From a marine bacterium B5-7 (GTDB taxonomy: Bacteria; Pseudomonadota; Gammaproteobacteria; Arenicellales; CAJQKF01), in contig BQJD01000016.1 of the NCBI GenBank assembly GCA_021604525.1, forward strand, positions 1 to 64,000: a DNA stretch of 64,000 nt. Direction: 5' to 3'. The position numbers were made by a program, and so were the translations under genes. The stretch's first letter is position 1, and every line of letters begins with the position of its first letter. Shown in pieces: positions 33,456 to 49,977 of the stretch. The notes under the pieces are model-generated. The model saw only the letters and a list, made by a program, of their open reading frames with translations, did not search any database and had not been told where the DNA came from.

Positions 33456-34118
33456 ATAAGAGAGTTTCAAGGTATCAGCGGCCTGCATTTTCATACCCTG
33501 TGTGAGCAGGGGTTTGAACCATTGGCGCAGACACTGGCAGCCATCGAAGACAAGTTCGGCGATCTTCTATGCCAGATGAGCTGGGTCAATTTTGGTGGCG
33601 GTCATCACATTACCCAACCCGGTTACGATGTTGACGGCCTGATTGAGGCGATCAAGGATTTCGCAACAAAATATGCGGTCAACGTTTATCTTGAACCAAG
33701 TGAGGCCATCGCCATCAATAGCGGTATATTGGTCAACGAGGTATTGGATATCGGCTGGAATGATTTGCCCCAGGCCATTTTGGATACATCTGCAACGTGT
33801 CATATGCCCGATGTGCTGGAGATGCCGTATCGACCCGACGTGTGGGGTGGCGGTAAGCCGGATGAGAATCCCAACTGTTATCGACTGGGCGACATGACCT
33901 GTTTGGCGGGTGATGTCATTGGCGATTACAGCTTTCGTGATGAGTTGAATGTGGGAGACCGCCTGATGTTTATGGATATGAGCCACTACACCATGGTAAA
34001 GACCACTACATTCAACGGGATTCGCCTGCCGTCTATTGCCATCTGGAATTCAGATACGGATTCGCTAACCGTGATCAAGGAATTTGGCTATGACGATTTC
34101 TGCAATCGCCTGTCCTGA
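33456..34118 (+). pseudogene. nspC: Carboxynorspermidine decarboxylase remnant, 5' truncated
   Basis: The frame is open from 33456 to 34118 and encodes only the C-terminal ~215 residues of an NspC-type PLP decarboxylase, normally about 365-400 residues. Visible motifs are SGLHFHTLCEQ, FGGGHHITQPGYD, YLEPSEAIA, TCHMPDVLEMPYRP and CLAGDVIGDY. The N-terminal half, with the PLP-binding lysine, is missing. A stop at 33453 closes the frame just upstream, and only 87 bases separate it from the ClpP-like gene. A TTG at 33522 could start a 198-residue product, but it would lack the lysine. I therefore call it a decayed gene from a lost carboxyspermidine route. Confidence 0.75.
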
Positions 34119-41671: not shown

Positions 41672-42763
41672 CTACTTTGGCAATTCCCCTTGTACACCTT
41701 CAACATACCAGTTCATGCCGAGTAATTCTTCGTCACTCAATGTGGTTCCTTCGGGTACCACCGTCTCGCCTGCCTGATTGACAATCGGTCCCTGGAATGG
41801 ATGCAGTTCGCCGGTGCTGATGGCTTTGGCGACGGCATCGGCATCGGCGCGAACATCATCGGGCACCGCATCGCCATAGGGCGCAATCTCCACCATCCCC
41901 GAAGCAATGCCGCCCCATGTGTCAGTGGATTTCCAGGTGCCGTCCATGACAGCACGAGTGCGATCCCTATAGTAGGAATCCCAGTTATCCACGATGGCGG
42001 TAAGTTGTGCCTTGGGTGCGAACGCGCTCATGTCGGAGGCCTGTCCAAAGCCGTGAACACCACGCTGCTCGGCGACCTGCAATGGTGCCGGCGAGTCGGT
42101 GTGCTGGGCAATAATATCGGCACCCTGATCGATCAATGCCTTGGCGGCATCACCCTCGGTGCCGGGATCGTACCAACTGTTAACCCAGACTACTTTGACT
42201 ACGGCATTCGGATTGACCTTGCGCATGGCGATGGTAAACGCATTGATGCCACGCACGACCTCGGGAATCGGAAAAGATCCCACGTAACCGACTATGCCGG
42301 TTTTTGTAAGGTGGCCGGCAATGTTTCCGATTACTGCACGGCCTTCATAAAAACGTGCTGCATAGGTGCTCAGATTATCGGCCCGCTTGTAGCCGGTGGC
42401 ATGTTCGAATTTAACCTTGGGGAATTGTTTGGCTACTTTGGCAGTCGCATTCATGAAGCCGAACGATGTCGTAAAAACAAGATCGTGACCGCTTGAAGCA
42501 AGCTTGCGAATCACCCGTTCGGCATCGGCGCCTTCGTTGACACTTTCCACATAGGTTGTTTTGACCTTATCGCCAAACTCGGCTTCCACTGCTTTGCGGC
42601 CGGCATCGTGACGAAAGGTCCAGCCGTGATCGCCGACCGGGCCGACATATACAAAACCGACTTTGGTGACTTCGTCGGCATGACTCATGCCGACACCGAT
42701 AAAGCTCATCAAGCAGGCCGCGACGGTGCCGCACAAGGCTTTCAATAAAGTCCGATTACCCAT
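41672..42763 (-). CDS. BMP-family ABC transporter substrate-binding protein
   Basis: This 363-residue periplasmic binding protein of the BMP/PnrA family captures purine nucleosides or related ligands. The N-terminal signal peptide (LLKALCGTVAACLMSFIGVGMSHA) precedes VGFVYVGPVGDHGWTFRHDAGR, then FTTSFGFMNAT and YVGSFPIPEVVRGINAF, which are family hallmarks. GAGGAG precedes the ATG. It is the last gene of the importer operon (44853-46400, 43778-44866, 42855-43781, then this), with a 91-base gap before it. The purine assignment is by family only. Confidence 0.92.
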   Translation of the reverse strand: MGNRTLLKALCGTVAACLMSFIGVGMSHADEVTKVGFVYVGPVGDHGWTFRHDAGRKAVEAEFGDKVKTTYVESVNEGADAERVIRKLASSGHDLVFTTSFGFMNATAKVAKQFPKVKFEHATGYKRADNLSTYAARFYEGRAVIGNIAGHLTKTGIVGYVGSFPIPEVVRGINAFTIAMRKVNPNAVVKVVWVNSWYDPGTEGDAAKALIDQGADIIAQHTDSPAPLQVAEQRGVHGFGQASDMSAFAPKAQLTAIVDNWDSYYRDRTRAVMDGTWKSTDTWGGIASGMVEIAPYGDAVPDDVRADADAVAKAISTGELHPFQGPIVNQAGETVVPEGTTLSDEELLGMNWYVEGVQGELPK

Positions 42764-42854
42764 GGGTTAGCTCCTCAATATGATTTAAAAGTCCGACGCA
42801 TTTTAAGAGGCACGCGACGAGTGCCGCGCGGTTCGATAAGGCTGCAAGAGTGTA

Positions 42855-43781
42855 TCACGCACTCGGATGAAATGGCTTGCCGATACAGGCCGGGGCATTC
42901 TGGCGAATACGCGACTCGTCACGTGAAATCACCACCAGCACCACGATCGTTGCGAGGTAGGGCAGCATGGTCATGAACTGCGATGGGACCGCGATGCCGA
43001 ACGCCTGGGCGTATAACTGCAAGATGGTGATGCCTCCAAACAGGTAGGCGCCGAACATCACCCGCCACGGCCGCCAGGTGGCGAATACTACCAGCGCCAA
43101 CGCAATCCAGCCGCGCCCGGCGCTCATGTTTTCCACCCACATGGTTGAATACGATAGCGACAGGTAGGCGCCGGCGAGTCCCGACATTGCGCCGCCAAAC
43201 AGGGTCGCCATATAACGAATGGCAATCACCGGATAACCAATGGCATGCGCCGCATCGTGAGAATCGCCCACCGCGCGCAGGATCAGACCGGCGCGGGTAC
43301 GATACAGAAACCAGGCCACCGCCGCCGGCAGCACGAACGACAGATACACCAGCGCGTCGTGATGAAACAGCAATGGACCAAGTACGGGTAAGTCCGACAC
43401 GATCGGTAGCTGCAGTTTGGGTAGCCCGGCGTAAGCGATCCCCACCATGTCCTGGCCGAGCAAGGCAGACAGGCCGATGCCGAACAGGGTCAGAGCGAGT
43501 CCAGTGGCTACCTGGCTGGCCTGTAAGCCGAGTACCAGGAAGGCGAAGATCAATGCCGTCAACATGCCCGCAGCCATCGCTGCAAGGCAACCCAGGATAG
43601 CGCTGTCGGTGACCACCACGGCGGCAAAACCGGTTACCGCGCCGGTCAGCATCATGCCTTCCACACCGAGATTCAATACGCCGGATTTCTCGGTGACCAA
43701 CTCGCCCATGGCGGCGAACACCAGCGGTGTGGCTGCTGTGATGATGGTTAATAAGGTCGGCAGGTAAAGATCGAAGTTCAC
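42855..43781 (-). CDS. ABC transporter permease (nucleoside/BMP importer type)
   Basis: This 308-residue inner-membrane permease of the BPD_transp_2 family has about eight helices. Marks are LVTEKSGVLNLGVEGMMLTGA near the start, ALTLFGIGLSALLG, and GGAMSGLAGAYLSL. It forms the translocation pore with the other permease and the ATPase gene. Start GTG 43781 overlaps the upstream permease stop by 4 bases. Confidence 0.92.
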   Translation of the reverse strand: MNFDLYLPTLLTIITAATPLVFAAMGELVTEKSGVLNLGVEGMMLTGAVTGFAAVVVTDSAILGCLAAMAAGMLTALIFAFLVLGLQASQVATGLALTLFGIGLSALLGQDMVGIAYAGLPKLQLPIVSDLPVLGPLLFHHDALVYLSFVLPAAVAWFLYRTRAGLILRAVGDSHDAAHAIGYPVIAIRYMATLFGGAMSGLAGAYLSLSYSTMWVENMSAGRGWIALALVVFATWRPWRVMFGAYLFGGITILQLYAQAFGIAVPSQFMTMLPYLATIVVLVVISRDESRIRQNAPACIGKPFHPSA

Positions 43782-44866
43782 GCCGTATTTCCTGCATCAA
43801 TCTTACTGACTATCGGGCCGATGCGTATGCGATAGCGGATCAGCACATCGCAGGCCAGCAGCATGAATAACAGCAGGCCCTGAAATACGCCGGTCACTGC
43901 GAGCGGCAGGTTCAGGCTGATCTGGGCATTCTCGCCACCAAGATAAGACAGCGCCATCAACAGGCTCGCCAGCAACACGCCCACAGGATGCAGCCGGCCG
44001 ACGAATGCCACGATGATGGCAGTAAAACCATAACCCGGTGATATGGATGGCAGCAGTTGGCCGATGGGACCGGACACCTCGATAACACCGGCCAGGCCTG
44101 CAGCGGCGCCAGCGAACAGGAGGGTCATCCAGATCAGTTTCTTGTGACTGAAGCCGGCATAGGCGCCGGCGCGCGGTGCACGGCCGATAACCTGTATCTG
44201 GAAACCAATCAGCGTGCGGGAGATGACAAACCATGCAGCGACGACAACGAATAGCGCCAGGGCAAAGCCGATATGCAGGCGCGAATCGGGGAAGATAATC
44301 GGCAGGCTGGCGGCGTCATGGAACATCCGTGATTCGGGAAAGTTGAAACCATCGGGATCACGCCATGGACCGTGCACCAGGTAACTCAATAGCAGGGTCG
44401 CAACGTAGGTAAGCATCAGGCTTACGAGAATCTCGCTTGTATTAAAGCGGGTGCGAAGGAATGCCGGAATGGCCGCCCAGAGCATTCCGCCGAGCATGGC
44501 CGCCAACAGCATAGCCGGCAACACCCACTTCGAATCGACGTCATATAGCAGCAGCCCCACCCCGCCGCCGAATATTGCCCCCAGGGTGAGTTGGCCCTCA
44601 GCGCCGATGTTCCAGACATTGGCACGAAAGCCGATGGCAAGGGCAACACCAATGAGAATAAGTGGTGTTGCCTTGACGCCGAGTTCGGTCAGACCGTATA
44701 GCGAAGATAACGGTTCAATGAAAAAAGCATATAAAGCGTCACCGGCTGGTACACCCATGATCTCGAACAGGACAACACCGGCCACCAGGGTCAAACCGAG
44801 CGCGAACACCGGCGACAGGTAAATCATGGCTCTTGATGGCTCAGCCCGAGCTTCAAGCCTCAGCAC
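43778..44866 (-). CDS. ABC transporter permease (nucleoside/BMP importer type)
   Basis: This 362-residue second permease of the same importer belongs to the BPD_transp_2 group. The LILIGVALAIGFRANVWNIGAEGQLTLGAIFG block and the later GGAAGLAGVIEVSGPIGQLLP are characteristic. The GTG at 44866, preceded by GGAG, overlaps the ATPase gene by 14 bases. Confidence 0.92.
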   Translation of the reverse strand: MLRLEARAEPSRAMIYLSPVFALGLTLVAGVVLFEIMGVPAGDALYAFFIEPLSSLYGLTELGVKATPLILIGVALAIGFRANVWNIGAEGQLTLGAIFGGGVGLLLYDVDSKWVLPAMLLAAMLGGMLWAAIPAFLRTRFNTSEILVSLMLTYVATLLLSYLVHGPWRDPDGFNFPESRMFHDAASLPIIFPDSRLHIGFALALFVVVAAWFVISRTLIGFQIQVIGRAPRAGAYAGFSHKKLIWMTLLFAGAAAGLAGVIEVSGPIGQLLPSISPGYGFTAIIVAFVGRLHPVGVLLASLLMALSYLGGENAQISLNLPLAVTGVFQGLLLFMLLACDVLIRYRIRIGPIVSKIDAGNTA

Positions 44867-46400
44867 GATCCATCTCCATGTCTGCCCCTGCCATCAGCAG
44901 GCCGATCTGTTCGACGCTGGTTGTTGCAACAGGCAACACGTCGGATAGCCTGCCTGCACAAATTGCTGCGATGCGGTTGCAGATCAGCATCAATTCATCA
45001 AGATCCTGGGAGATGACCAGCACTGCGGCACCGGCTTCGGCCATTTCGACCAACGCCTGCTGAATGGCTGTGGCTGCTCCGGCATCGACGCCCCAGGTCG
45101 GCTGGCAGACCACCAGCACGCCATGACGTTGACAGATCTCGCGGCCGACAATAAATTTCTGCAAATTGCCACCTGACAGACTGGATGCCGTCGATTGGTG
45201 TCCACCAGCCTTGACCCGGAATTGATCGATCACGCGGTTGCTGAACGCATTGCGCAGACGGCGACGAATCAAACCATAGCGAGTCAAACCCATACGATGG
45301 TGCGCAGTCAGATAGGCATTTTCGGCAAGACTCAGGTCGGCTATTGCGCCATGCCCAAAACGCTCCTCGGGTATGCTGCCGAGCCCCAGTTCACGCCGAA
45401 ACTCAGGCCCTCGATGACCGCAGGCAACCTGATCGATAACGATGGTATCGGCTTGTTGGCAACGGCGTTCACCCGCCAGGGCATTGGTCAATTCAATCTG
45501 ACCATTGCCGGCCACGCCGGCGATGCCGAGAATCTCGCCACGACCCACCGTGAAACTGATGTTCTTGAGATCGACGCCGAATTCATCCAGCGCACGCAGC
45601 GACAGATCGTTCACCACCAGTCGCGGCGGGCTGTCAGATTGGGTAAGCGGCGGTCGCGAGGGCAGTTCAAGCTCCTCACCCATCATTATCGCTGCCAGCG
45701 ATCGGGCGGTATGCGTGGTTGGATCCGTATCGGCAACCACCCGGCCGTTACGCAGAATGGTTGCCTGATGACACAACGTGCGAATCTCATCCAGCTTGTG
45801 GCTGATATAAAGAATCGACATCCCCTGGGCCGCCAGTCGTCGCAATGTGGCAAAGAGCTGTTCGATCTCCTGAGGTGTCAATACCGAAGTCGGCTCATCC
45901 ATGATGAGTAACTTTGGTTGTTGCAACAGGCAGCGAATGATCTCGATTCGCTGGCGCTCGCCGACCGACAGTGAATGCACATGGCGATCCGGATCGAGTA
46001 ATAAACCATAGCTTGTGGATACCTCGCGAATACGCGCCTTCAAGGATTCCATGTTGCCAGGCGAATCCATGCCAAGGGCGATATTCTCAACCACTGTCAG
46101 GGATTCAAACAGCGAGAAGTGCTGAAACACCATGGCGATACCCAGGCGACGCGCGGTCGACGGACTATCGATGGTCACAGGCTCGCCGCACCAGCGAATG
46201 TTGCCGCTATCCGCCCTGAGGATGCCGTAGATGATCTTCACCAGGGTGCTTTTGCCAGCGCCGTTTTCACCTAGCAACGCATGGATTTCGCCGCGACTGA
46301 TGGCAAAGTCAACGTGATCGTTGGCAAGGCAGCCGGGATACGATTTGGTGATGGCGCCAAGCGCGAGCAGCGGTGTTTTGGCATCGGGTTGTTTGATCAC
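44853..46400 (-). CDS. ABC transporter ATP-binding protein, duplicated ATPase (nucleoside/BMP importer type)
   Basis: This 515-residue protein carries two tandem ABC domains, the layout of nucleoside and sugar importers. The first domain has Walker A GENGAGKSTLVK, signature LSVGERQRIEIIRCL and LLIMDEPTSVLTPQE. The second shows VAGNGQIELTNALAG and the signature LSGGNLQKFIVGREI. It energises uptake through the two permeases just downstream. The start is GTG 46400 with GGAG upstream. It is the first gene of the operon. Confidence 0.92.
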   Translation of the reverse strand: MIKQPDAKTPLLALGAITKSYPGCLANDHVDFAISRGEIHALLGENGAGKSTLVKIIYGILRADSGNIRWCGEPVTIDSPSTARRLGIAMVFQHFSLFESLTVVENIALGMDSPGNMESLKARIREVSTSYGLLLDPDRHVHSLSVGERQRIEIIRCLLQQPKLLIMDEPTSVLTPQEIEQLFATLRRLAAQGMSILYISHKLDEIRTLCHQATILRNGRVVADTDPTTHTARSLAAIMMGEELELPSRPPLTQSDSPPRLVVNDLSLRALDEFGVDLKNISFTVGRGEILGIAGVAGNGQIELTNALAGERRCQQADTIVIDQVACGHRGPEFRRELGLGSIPEERFGHGAIADLSLAENAYLTAHHRMGLTRYGLIRRRLRNAFSNRVIDQFRVKAGGHQSTASSLSGGNLQKFIVGREICQRHGVLVVCQPTWGVDAGAATAIQQALVEMAEAGAAVLVISQDLDELMLICNRIAAICAGRLSDVLPVATTSVEQIGLLMAGADMEMDRAEA

Positions 46401-46520: not shown

Positions 46521-46546
46521 TGTGGGGCGGATTTCTCCGCCCCACA
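46521..46546 (-). terminator. Perfect 11-bp hairpin after the BCCT gene
   Basis: Arms at 46521-46531 and 46536-46546 are perfect reverse complements with a 4-base loop (TTTC). It lies 34 bases beyond the BCCT stop on the minus strand. There is no strong T tract afterwards, so it may be a stabilising hairpin or a weak terminator. Confidence 0.6.
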
Positions 46547-46579
46547 ATGTGAAGTTACAAGATATCAGGGAACGCGACG

Positions 46580-48181
46580 TTAACGGTTCAGGAACTCCAG
46601 CTCCCGCTTGTCTTCGACTTTGGGTACCGGGAAATCTTCATGTAACGTTTTCACCATGCCATAACCCATGAATAGCAACATCACTGCAATCGGCAAGCCC
46701 GCGACAATTGAGGCCGTCTGAAGCGCGGTCAAACCGCCCGCCAGCAAGAGCACGCCAGCAACAACACCAGAGGTGATGCCCCAGAAAAGGCGGAACTTGA
46801 TTGGTGGGTTCTCATCACCCATGGAGAGCATCGTACACATCACCAGCGTACCCGAATCGGACGATGTGACGAACCATGACACCAGCAAAACTGTGACCAG
46901 AATGGTAATTGGTGTGATCAGGGATTCGTAGCCAAACCCTGCAATTGTCTGGAATACTCCCGACGCATAATCCGCGTTGACCGCATCAATCACGCCGCCA
47001 TTGTTGAAGAAATCGACGCCGATGGCGGCACTACCGAATATGCCCATCCACAAAACAACAACAGAAACCGGGACAAGAAGAACACACAGGCAGAATTGAC
47101 GGATAGTACGACCTTTGGAAACGCGTGCGATAAACAAGCCGACAAATGGGCACCAGGCGATCCACCAACCCCAATAAAAGATTGTCCACCAGCTCTGCCA
47201 TTGACGCTCAGGATCGCCGTCAATCCAGAATCCCATGGGGATGACATTCCAAAGGTAGTCACCCGCGCCGGTAATCGTCATGCCCAGGATAAAGGCTGTT
47301 GGTCCCAAAACCAGGAAAAGCACAAGCAACCCGAGACTGGCCCAGACATTTATCTCGCTCAGTATACGTACACCCTTTCCGACACCAGAGACAGCGGAGG
47401 CTGTGCCCATTGCGGTAATAACCGCGATAAGGATCAATTGGTTGGTTTGGGTATTTTCCATCCATCCCAGTTTTTCCATGCCGGCCGCGATGGGCGAAAT
47501 ACCCAAACCCAGTGAGGTTGCAAGACCAAAGATTGTCCCGAACACACCAAGAAGATCAATCAGGTGCCCCCAGGGTCCATACACTTTATCTTTCAGGACG
47601 GGATACAGGGCGGAACGCAGGGTCAGCGGTAATCCCTTTCGGTAGGAGAAGTACGCAAGGCTCAAGCCCACCAGCACATAGAGTGCCCAACCATGCAGCC
47701 CCCAATGAAAAATGGTGACTCGTATGGCGGTCGCAGCGGCTTCCACGCTGCCCGCTTCTACTCCGGAACGCGCCAAAAAGGGGTTATCCTGAATATGGTA
47801 GATTGGCTCCGCGACGCCCCAATAGATCAGGCCTGAGCCTAACCCCGCACTAAACAACATGCAGATCCACGAGAATGTCGAAAAATCCGGTTCTTCGTCA
47901 ACTTTACCCAGTTTCACATCGCCAAAACGGCTCAGCATTAACCAAAAGACGAAAAACAGTACCAGATTTACTACCAGGACATAAAACCAATCCATGGTGA
48001 CAATGATGAAGTCTTTCCCTGCGGAAAAGACCTCGCCGGAATAGTCAACATCCATAATGGTGAAGGCGACAAACCCCAGGATCATGATCATGGATGCGAT
48101 GGCCATAACGGCACTCATCCCGGCAAATAGCCCAGATTTCGAGACTAGGTCCTCTGGCCGCATAAGGGTCTTGTTACTCAT
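46580..48181 (-). CDS. BCCT-family betaine/carnitine/choline transporter
   Basis: This 533-residue inner-membrane secondary transporter of the BCCT family has about 12 helices. The signature is WWTIFYWGWWIAWCPFVGLF (Trp box), and GVAEPIYHI and ARVSKGRTIRQF also fit. The family imports quaternary ammonium osmolytes or related amines, coupled to sodium or proton; the ligand is not readable. GAGAGGA lies before the ATG. It sits 35 bases after the binding-protein gene and probably shares its transcript. No long C-terminal osmosensing domain of the BetP type is evident; the tail is short. Confidence 0.93.
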   Translation of the reverse strand: MSNKTLMRPEDLVSKSGLFAGMSAVMAIASMIMILGFVAFTIMDVDYSGEVFSAGKDFIIVTMDWFYVLVVNLVLFFVFWLMLSRFGDVKLGKVDEEPDFSTFSWICMLFSAGLGSGLIYWGVAEPIYHIQDNPFLARSGVEAGSVEAAATAIRVTIFHWGLHGWALYVLVGLSLAYFSYRKGLPLTLRSALYPVLKDKVYGPWGHLIDLLGVFGTIFGLATSLGLGISPIAAGMEKLGWMENTQTNQLILIAVITAMGTASAVSGVGKGVRILSEINVWASLGLLVLFLVLGPTAFILGMTITGAGDYLWNVIPMGFWIDGDPERQWQSWWTIFYWGWWIAWCPFVGLFIARVSKGRTIRQFCLCVLLVPVSVVVLWMGIFGSAAIGVDFFNNGGVIDAVNADYASGVFQTIAGFGYESLITPITILVTVLLVSWFVTSSDSGTLVMCTMLSMGDENPPIKFRLFWGITSGVVAGVLLLAGGLTALQTASIVAGLPIAVMLLFMGYGMVKTLHEDFPVPKVEDKRELEFLNR

Positions 48182-48216
48182 TGATTTATCCTCTCTCGAT
48201 CACAAACTTCTGTGGG

Positions 48217-49362
48217 TTATCGAACGGTTCCGGAAGCGCCTTTCTGTGCAGCTTTTGAGATCCACGCATCGAACGCTTCTTCCAAAGCGGCATGGTTTCT
48301 TGACCACCATTCGGCATCGGATAGAATTGAAAGTTGCTCACTATAAGCTGGCCCATTTGGTATCTGCTTAAGTACATCATCGGACAGAAAAGCCAGCGAT
48401 GATTTTCTGGTCGGACCGTTGGGTAAATTGGAAACCATATTGGCCAGAGATCGGGAACTGCTCGCGAACCGGATGAACTCTATTGCTTCATTCTTGTAGC
48501 GGCTGCCTTTCGGGATACCGAACAGATCGAGCTCAATCACTCGGCCATCCCACACAACGGAAAAATTCGCTCCTTCCTCCTTTGATGCTACGGCACCCGT
48601 TGTCGCCCAAATCATGGTCATGGGCACGTCGCCAGCGTTCAAGAGGCGAATGGGCTCCCGCCCGGTGCTCCAAAGTTTGATGCCGGGTTTGATCTCATCC
48701 ATCTTTGCCAGGGCACGTTTGATTCCTTCAGGCGTCTCAAGGGTGGGATAGACATCCTCGCGTGCGACGCCATCCGCCATTAATGCCCACTCCATAATCA
48801 CAGTAGGGTCATTGCGGATAGCACGCGGGCCGGGAAATTTATCGGTGTCGAAAAAGTCTGAAATTGTCGTCGGCTTGTCAGTCCCATACGCATCGTGACT
48901 ATAGGCGAAGGCCGTCGCCCAGACGATAACGCCAACACCACAAGAATTTAGCGCACCGTCGACAAAATCATCCCGGTAATTACTTCCATCTGCCCCGCCT
49001 GGTAGTCCTATATCCTCAATATTTTCCAACAACCCTTCGTTGCAGGCACGTAATGAATCCGACTGCGTCAAGTCAACAACATCCCAGAGTACATTCGCCG
49101 ATTCGACTTGATCGCGAATTTCGGCAATGCCGCCGTTATAACTCGCCACATGAACCCGGATGTTATTTTGTTCTTCGTAGGGGCGCACAAATCCCAGCAT
49201 CTGGCTGCGCATATAGGGTCCTGGCCATGAAGTAAAAGTGATTTCATTTCTTGCAGGTGAGGTACTTTGCTGGGCATGTGCTCCGGGTGCGGCGATTGCC
49301 GATACCACCAATCCAAAAGCGACAAGTGGGCTACTAAGGTACCTTAAACAGTTTGGCGCCAT
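48217..49362 (-). CDS. PotD-like ABC-type substrate-binding protein, no ABC partners
   Basis: This protein of about 381 residues starts at ATG 49362, chosen because AGGAGG sits 8 bases upstream; a longer frame begins at 49428. A signal peptide (SSPLVAFGLVVSAIAAPGAHA) precedes a PotD/PotF-type (polyamine/extracellular solute) binding domain with EITFTSWPGPYMRSQM, WDVVDLTQSDSLRACNEGLL and GDVPMTMIWATTGAV. No ABC permease or ATPase lies next to it; its only close neighbour is the BCCT gene 35 bases downstream. It should be periplasmic. The ligand may be a quaternary amine or polyamine. Confidence 0.9.
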   Translation of the reverse strand: MAPNCLRYLSSPLVAFGLVVSAIAAPGAHAQQSTSPARNEITFTSWPGPYMRSQMLGFVRPYEEQNNIRVHVASYNGGIAEIRDQVESANVLWDVVDLTQSDSLRACNEGLLENIEDIGLPGGADGSNYRDDFVDGALNSCGVGVIVWATAFAYSHDAYGTDKPTTISDFFDTDKFPGPRAIRNDPTVIMEWALMADGVAREDVYPTLETPEGIKRALAKMDEIKPGIKLWSTGREPIRLLNAGDVPMTMIWATTGAVASKEEGANFSVVWDGRVIELDLFGIPKGSRYKNEAIEFIRFASSSRSLANMVSNLPNGPTRKSSLAFLSDDVLKQIPNGPAYSEQLSILSDAEWWSRNHAALEEAFDAWISKAAQKGASGTVR

Positions 49363-49635: not shown

Positions 49636-49977
49636 ATGAGCCAGATTACCACTCATATACTCGACACGGCACGCGGCTGTCCCGCACCTGGCGTGCGGGT
49701 CGTGTTATCCCATGCCAACGACAACGGCTTTATCGAGATTGGCGAGGACGTAACTGATCAGAACGGCCAGGCAACGGCGCTGCTTGACGAGGGTCAGGCG
49801 TTGGATGCCGGGGTGTACCAGGTTCGGTTTGAAGTGAGCGGATATTTTCGCAATCGTGGCCACAATCATTTTTATCCCTACGTCGACGTTGTTTTCAACG
49901 TCGAAGGTGATAGTCGGCCGCATCATATCCCCTTGCTGCTATCTCCCTATGGCTACTCTACATACCTCGGTTCATGA
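49636..49977 (+). CDS. uraH: 5-hydroxyisourate hydrolase
   Basis: This 113-residue transthyretin-like enzyme of urate breakdown converts 5-hydroxyisourate to OHCU. The N-terminal THILDTARGCPAPGV and the late NHFYPYVDVVF match the family. The C-terminus ends YSTYLGS, a variant of the usual YRGS active-site signature. GGAG precedes the ATG. The other uric-acid genes (urate oxidase, OHCU decarboxylase) are not in the window. Confidence 0.92.
   Translation: MSQITTHILDTARGCPAPGVRVVLSHANDNGFIEIGEDVTDQNGQATALLDEGQALDAGVYQVRFEVSGYFRNRGHNHFYPYVDVVFNVEGDSRPHHIPLLLSPYGYSTYLGS

Follow-up and report, generated by a model that had tools for sequence, protein, structure and literature searches.

The window, that is, the whole 64,000-nucleotide stretch analyzed here from contig BQJD01000016.1 of the marine bacterium B5-7, carries two closely spaced genes on its minus strand. 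The first (48217-49362), an open reading frame that starts with ATG and encodes 381 amino acids, specifies a PotD-like periplasmic substrate-binding protein (SBP; Pfam SBP_bac_8, E 5e-36), and the second (46580-48181; 533 amino acids) specifies a BCCT carrier (Pfam BCCT, E 1.5e-172). The two are separated by exactly 35 nt (48182-48216), with a purine-rich, ribosome-binding-like GAGAGGAT ahead of the BCCT start. No potABC genes adjoin the pair in a Pfam check of the window neighbors, confirming what the preliminary description had read from the DNA: a PotD-like SBP without ABC partners, 35 bases ahead of a BCCT gene on the same strand. BCCT and SBP_bac_8/SBP_bac_1 are the only Pfam families in the two proteins. 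By the same search, the pair lacks a DctM/DctQ membrane subunit and a DctP or TAXI SBP, which excludes it from the TRAP transporters; it lacks TctA/TctB subunits and a Bug-type SBP, which excludes it from the TTT family; and it lacks the TAXI SBP with GltS that defines a third class (PMC12344293). What it does contain is an SBP and a carrier in a conserved gene pair free of ABC parts, the arrangement that marks an SBP-dependent secondary transporter.

Downstream on the same strand lies an operon (41672-46400) that encodes every part of a BMP-type ABC importer, including an SBP of the PnrA/BMP type. We rejected the idea that the PotD-like SBP is a part of this importer: the operon supplies a PnrA-like SBP itself, it is missing beside relatives of the pair, and a strong hairpin separates it from the BCCT stop. 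This near-perfect 11-bp hairpin (46521-46547, minus strand; MFE -29.5 kcal/mol, z -3.3) is possibly the transcript end; it has no T run and was not called in a terminator scan. On the other side, a 5-hydroxyisourate hydrolase gene (49636-49977, plus strand) diverges from the pair and, together with the BMP-type importer, gives the look of a purine-catabolism neighborhood, which is not conserved with the pair. Elsewhere in the window, a 198-amino-acid open reading frame (33522-34118, plus strand) looks like a carboxynorspermidine decarboxylase reduced to its C-terminal half, perhaps through breakage or a frameshift.

The BCCT domain of the carrier is full-length, spanning residues 28-515 and profile positions 3-484 of 485, and TIGR00842 scores above its cut-off. 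The protein carries the betaine-carrier aromatic-box motifs FHWGLHGWALY, FYWGWWIAWCPFVG and FVTSSDSG, and comparison with the aligned BetP, TmaT and choline BCCT sequences locates both the Trp/aromatic substrate box and the Na2-type Thr-Ser, residues whose roles in betaine carriers are established. It is the single BCCT gene in the whole genome. BCCT relatives that are 50-53% identical to it occur without an SBP (L168-L177), suggesting that this type of carrier can probably act alone and that the SBP could be an accessory. Among BCCT residues that might split SBP-linked from solo carriers, position 164 alone passed (TM4, in the HGW motif, near the substrate box by homology): it is Gly in the SBP-linked carriers of groups A and B, defined below, and mostly Ala in their solo sister carriers. 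We considered this too weak for use and set it aside.

The SBP has a plausible Sec signal peptide, with cleavage likely after AHA. Its closest solved structure is 8jv1, 'SAR11 PotD in complex with GABA' (E 2e-42), and its AlphaFold model, in which the core exceeds a pLDDT of 90 and residues 373-381 fall below 50, resembles both 8jv1 (TM 0.81/0.86) and MotA. The protein thus has the family profile and the two-lobe fold of the PotD type.

The preliminary description had named conservation of the gene pair as a check on its reading and a lack of co-conservation as grounds for refuting it. We found that alpha- and gammaproteobacteria both keep the pair, and unbiased samples agree. The main scan, which took one genome per species and was seeded on short peptides, yielded 80 relatives of the SBP. 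In the tree set, the SBP adjoins a BCCT gene in 52 loci besides the window, distributed over Rhodobacteraceae, Hyphomicrobiales and Gammaproteobacteria. Relatives more than about 43% identical to the SBP lie beside a BCCT gene wherever the contig permits; those below about 43% (from Pseudomonas and others) mostly lie within potA-SBP-potB-potC operons, and no SBP of the BCCT-linked clade adjoins potABC in any sampled locus. Three arrangements recur. In group A (the window, Roseovarius, Ruegeria, Roseobacter, Nitratireductor and other alpha- and gammaproteobacterial genomes), the SBP gene precedes the BCCT gene, and most of the gaps measure 29-39 nt if the short start is used. In group B, from gammaproteobacteria, the BCCT gene comes first. 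In group C (L180-L182), the SBP gene is followed by a CaiT-like BCCT sharing only 33-34% identity with the carrier of the window. Outside the pair no neighbor recurs, as the flanks vary from locus to locus. Because the flanks are not conserved and the gene order flips while adjacency is kept, the two genes form a conserved unit rather than a chance association. No natural SBP-BCCT fusion was present among the fetched loci.

Because the main scan had been seeded on short peptides, we repeated the test on drawn genomes. Within the window's order, 13 of 24 SBP matches at E<=1e-70 adjoin a BCCT gene, 10 adjoin potABC and one adjoins a CLC gene. In the family to which one Roseovarius-like genome belongs, all four matches at 67-73% identity adjoin a BCCT gene and carry the C-terminal tail described below, and all six matches at 40-43% adjoin potA/potB and are without it. 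In a phylum sample, 24 of the 29 loci that we read were potABC-linked, and the pair is uncommon when gammaproteobacteria are taken as a whole. A plasmid collection yielded solely ABC-type relatives of the SBP at less than 40% identity, including one from Vibrio with potAB downstream. In addition, three genomes carry a PotD-like SBP from a different small clade directly after a gene of the CLC family (chloride channel/antiporter) on the same strand, again without an ABC partner (L063:7213-10060, L193, L276).

Three marks distinguish the BCCT-linked lineage, the first two taken from a comparison of alignment columns between BCCT-linked SBPs (42 from group A, 10 from B and 3 from C) and 42 ABC-linked SBPs. 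On helix 1, which the model places at residues 49-66 (49165-49218, minus strand), R52, M55, L56 and V59 are fixed in groups A, B and C and replaced by other residues in ABC-linked SBPs; they form a candidate docking face. Position 252 (48607-48609, minus strand) is Trp in all BCCT-linked SBPs of the three groups versus Ala or Tyr in the ABC-linked ones, and W252 is possibly a residue of the ligand pocket. Finally, the protein ends in a tail, G375-A-S-G378-T-V-R381 (48220-48240, minus strand), that lies flush with the stop codon and is a candidate docking peptide. The GxxGxxR-stop pattern occurs in 53 of 53 group A and B SBPs (50 that adjoin a BCCT gene and three whose contig stops just past the SBP) versus 0 of 42 ABC-linked SBPs, the genome's own PotD among the latter, and in none of the 24 potABC-linked SBPs of the separate phylum sample. 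Group C SBPs lack GxxGxxR and end instead in an alternative conserved extension, IDR-x-VRF. The invariance of the tail is striking, since groups A and B share only about 42-46% identity overall. Its Gly and Arg codons vary freely while the amino acids do not, so selection acts on the protein. The tail is also present whether the SBP gene comes first or second, and we therefore rejected a translation-coupling or RNA signal as its explanation. Predicted to be disordered and yet invariant, it matches what one would expect of a docking peptide, and the persistence of the helix-1 and tail residues across deep divergence suggests that they have a functional role. Part of the contrast with ABC-linked SBPs reflects shared ancestry, because the tail and the helix-1 residues were gained on one or a few branches.

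In the SBP tree, BCCT-linked and ABC-linked proteins lie on opposite sides of one branch; a careful tree of 52 proteins places the BCCT-linked set together with a further group, D, on one side of this branch with support of 100/98; on that side, group C may lie nearer either to A+B or to D. In the BCCT tree, all group A carriers are SBP-linked, group B carriers are nested among the solo carriers (L168-L177), and group C carriers lie far off, indicating that one SBP lineage goes with more than one BCCT lineage. Group D SBPs (L227:5828-8265, L228:6810-9267, L259 and also L226) are on the BCCT-type side of the tree and have a tail of their own, ...RPVRVPRALPH. In three of the four loci their gene directly follows a porin-like gene; no BCCT gene adjoins the SBP gene, yet several are found elsewhere in the three genomes that we checked.

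The nearest solved relatives of the SBP bind GABA (SAR11 PotD, Atu4243) or opines (MotA, AgtB), all zwitterionic amino compounds. Gene neighbors, of which we examined 30, were rejected as a guide to the substrate: none recurs, and they offer only scattered hints of quaternary amines, namely a GbdR-type regulator near the pair in L054 and a betaine-aldehyde-dehydrogenase-type gene after the pair in L196. Because no neighbor recurs, we claim no substrate from context. The substrate is likely to be a betaine-like zwitterion, with GABA-like or betaine-type zwitterions (gamma-butyrobetaine, carnitine, glycine betaine and DMSP) as candidates. Two solo BCCT genes whose products are 51% identical to the window's carrier (L229, L230) lie beside a gene for an 837-838-amino-acid protein with a double CoA-transferase domain and further genes for an iron alcohol dehydrogenase and an MMSDH-type dehydrogenase, a set that we take to resemble a dddD-type DMSP cluster. 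BCCTs of Roseovarius nubinhibens have been reported to import DMSP and betaine (PMC10030565) and may or may not include the SBP-linked one at L048.

As far as sequence can tell, then, an exported SBP of the PotD/GABA/opine family and a full-length BCCT are a conserved two-gene unit, and the SBP belongs to a distinct lineage. We consider it probable that the products of the two genes together form a single secondary importer for betaine-like zwitterions that depends on a binding protein, in other words an SBP-dependent BCCT. The preliminary description had raised a binding-protein-assisted BCCT as an unusual possibility; conservation of the gene pair and the absence of an orphan ABC partner among the PotC-like loci found in the genome both speak for it. 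In the proposed cycle, the periplasmic SBP would capture a scarce betaine-like zwitterion at high affinity and close around it. The loaded SBP would then use its helix-1 face and its flexible C-terminal tail to dock on the BCCT from the periplasm and pass its ligand to the aromatic (Trp) box, which faces outward; from there, the carrier would move the ligand inward. Na+ coupling of this step is probable because the Na2-type Thr-Ser motif and the Trp box are retained. By analogy with what SiaP does for SiaQM, transport would gain in affinity and specificity from the SBP, and the dependence of the BCCT on it may be strict or merely an enhancement.

Among the alternatives, the one that we take most seriously, though we hold it to be unlikely, is that the BCCT acts alone and that the co-expressed SBP never docks on it, but only buffers substrate, hands it to a sensor or chemoreceptor, or is dispensable. 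Close relatives of the carrier do occur solo, group D SBPs of the same clade adjoin a porin-like gene rather than a BCCT gene, and examples of sensors supplied by binding proteins are known. However, genes for receptors or sensors do not recur around the pair. The SBP is strictly paired with BCCTs from two subfamilies, whichever gene comes first, a pattern that singles out the carrier as its partner; the constancy of the helix-1 face and of the C-terminal tail also suggests that the SBP engages another protein. That the genes are adjacent by accident, or hitchhike in a mobile or clonal segment, is scarcely credible. Related genomes inherit neighbors jointly, but nothing specific favors this reading, and the flanks are shuffled, the order flips while the gap is kept, and SBPs down to about 42% identity stay paired.

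The SBP could also serve an ABC permease encoded elsewhere and merely share regulation with the BCCT, an outcome that the preliminary description had named as fatal to its proposal. The family is otherwise ABC-linked, and several SBPs can share a single ABC core (Chen et al. 2010, as cited in PMC4744692): in Pseudomonas, the quaternary-amine SBPs CaiX, BetX and CbcX are encoded away from the ABC core that they serve, CbcWV. By contrast, the constant neighbor of the window's SBP clade is a BCCT gene, the lineage lies beside potABC in no sampled locus, and its helix 1 and tail differ from those of PotABC-linked SBPs. The genome itself encodes 16 SBP_bac_8 proteins. A search with its own PotC as the query found 11 PotC-like permease loci, of which 10 lie no more than about 5 kb from an SBP_bac_8 gene; the eleventh and last candidate, on contig C18, has its own PotD-like SBP. 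An orphan PotABC was therefore rejected for every PotC-like locus found, in a search below whose limit more divergent permeases may sit. With all 11 loci owning an SBP, a distant ABC partner is quite improbable, markedly more so than a BCCT that acts alone, and an SBP-dependent BCCT stays the preferred reading.

Several known systems resemble the proposed SBP-dependent BCCT in part. TmaT, BetP, DddT, the choline BCCTs and CaiT resemble the window's carrier in full-length homology and in their aromatic-box and Na2-type motifs; known BCCTs are described as single-subunit (PMC10030565), whereas the window's has a dedicated SBP gene conserved alongside it. PotD-family ABC importers (PotABCD and systems for GABA, opine and polyamine uptake) have the SBP fold and family in common with the window's SBP, but they possess an ATPase/permease partner that it lacks, and it forms its own lineage with its own helix-1 residues and C-terminal extension. 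TRAP and TTT transporters would operate alike, with a soluble SBP and an ion-driven carrier, and differ in both SBP and membrane families. TRAP transporters are elevators, and BCCTs are LeuT-fold carriers of the rocking-bundle type. Indeed, all the secondary carriers so far linked to an SBP (TRAP, TTT and TAXI-GltS) are either known or predicted to be elevators.

The closest parallel is TAXI-GltS of Bordetella pertussis, in which genome context likewise tied an SBP to a carrier thought to act alone (PMC12344293). It uses a TAXI SBP with GltS, a predicted elevator, in place of a PotD-like SBP with a BCCT; its SBP has measured ligand binding and natural fusions exist (PMC12344293), two lines of evidence that set it apart from the window's pair. 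The preliminary description held that secondary transporters rarely rely on SBPs outside TRAP and TTT. These two are indeed the established cases, but the statement is slightly outdated, as TAXI-GltS was proposed in 2025 as an SBP-dependent secondary carrier, with uptake still unproven (PMC12344293). We found no description of an SBP-linked BCCT in the open-access literature, a scope that leaves aside subscription journals and preprints.

The pair likely adds to SBP-dependent secondary transport, so far comprising TRAP, TTT and TAXI-GltS. The authors of the TAXI-GltS study proposed that an elevator mechanism is perhaps required for ligand delivery by an SBP and that further classes would test this idea (PMC12344293). 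Because BCCTs are not elevators, SBP dependence here would be a direct test. If our reading is correct, an SBP of the type that serves ABC pumps has switched to an ion-driven BCCT family thought to work alone, creating a two-part importer, and many genes annotated as 'ABC transporter substrate-binding protein' are not parts of ABC transporters. BCCTs are often described as low-affinity carriers (PMC10130141), and the pairing would explain how marine bacteria could turn such a family into a scavenger of dilute osmolytes.
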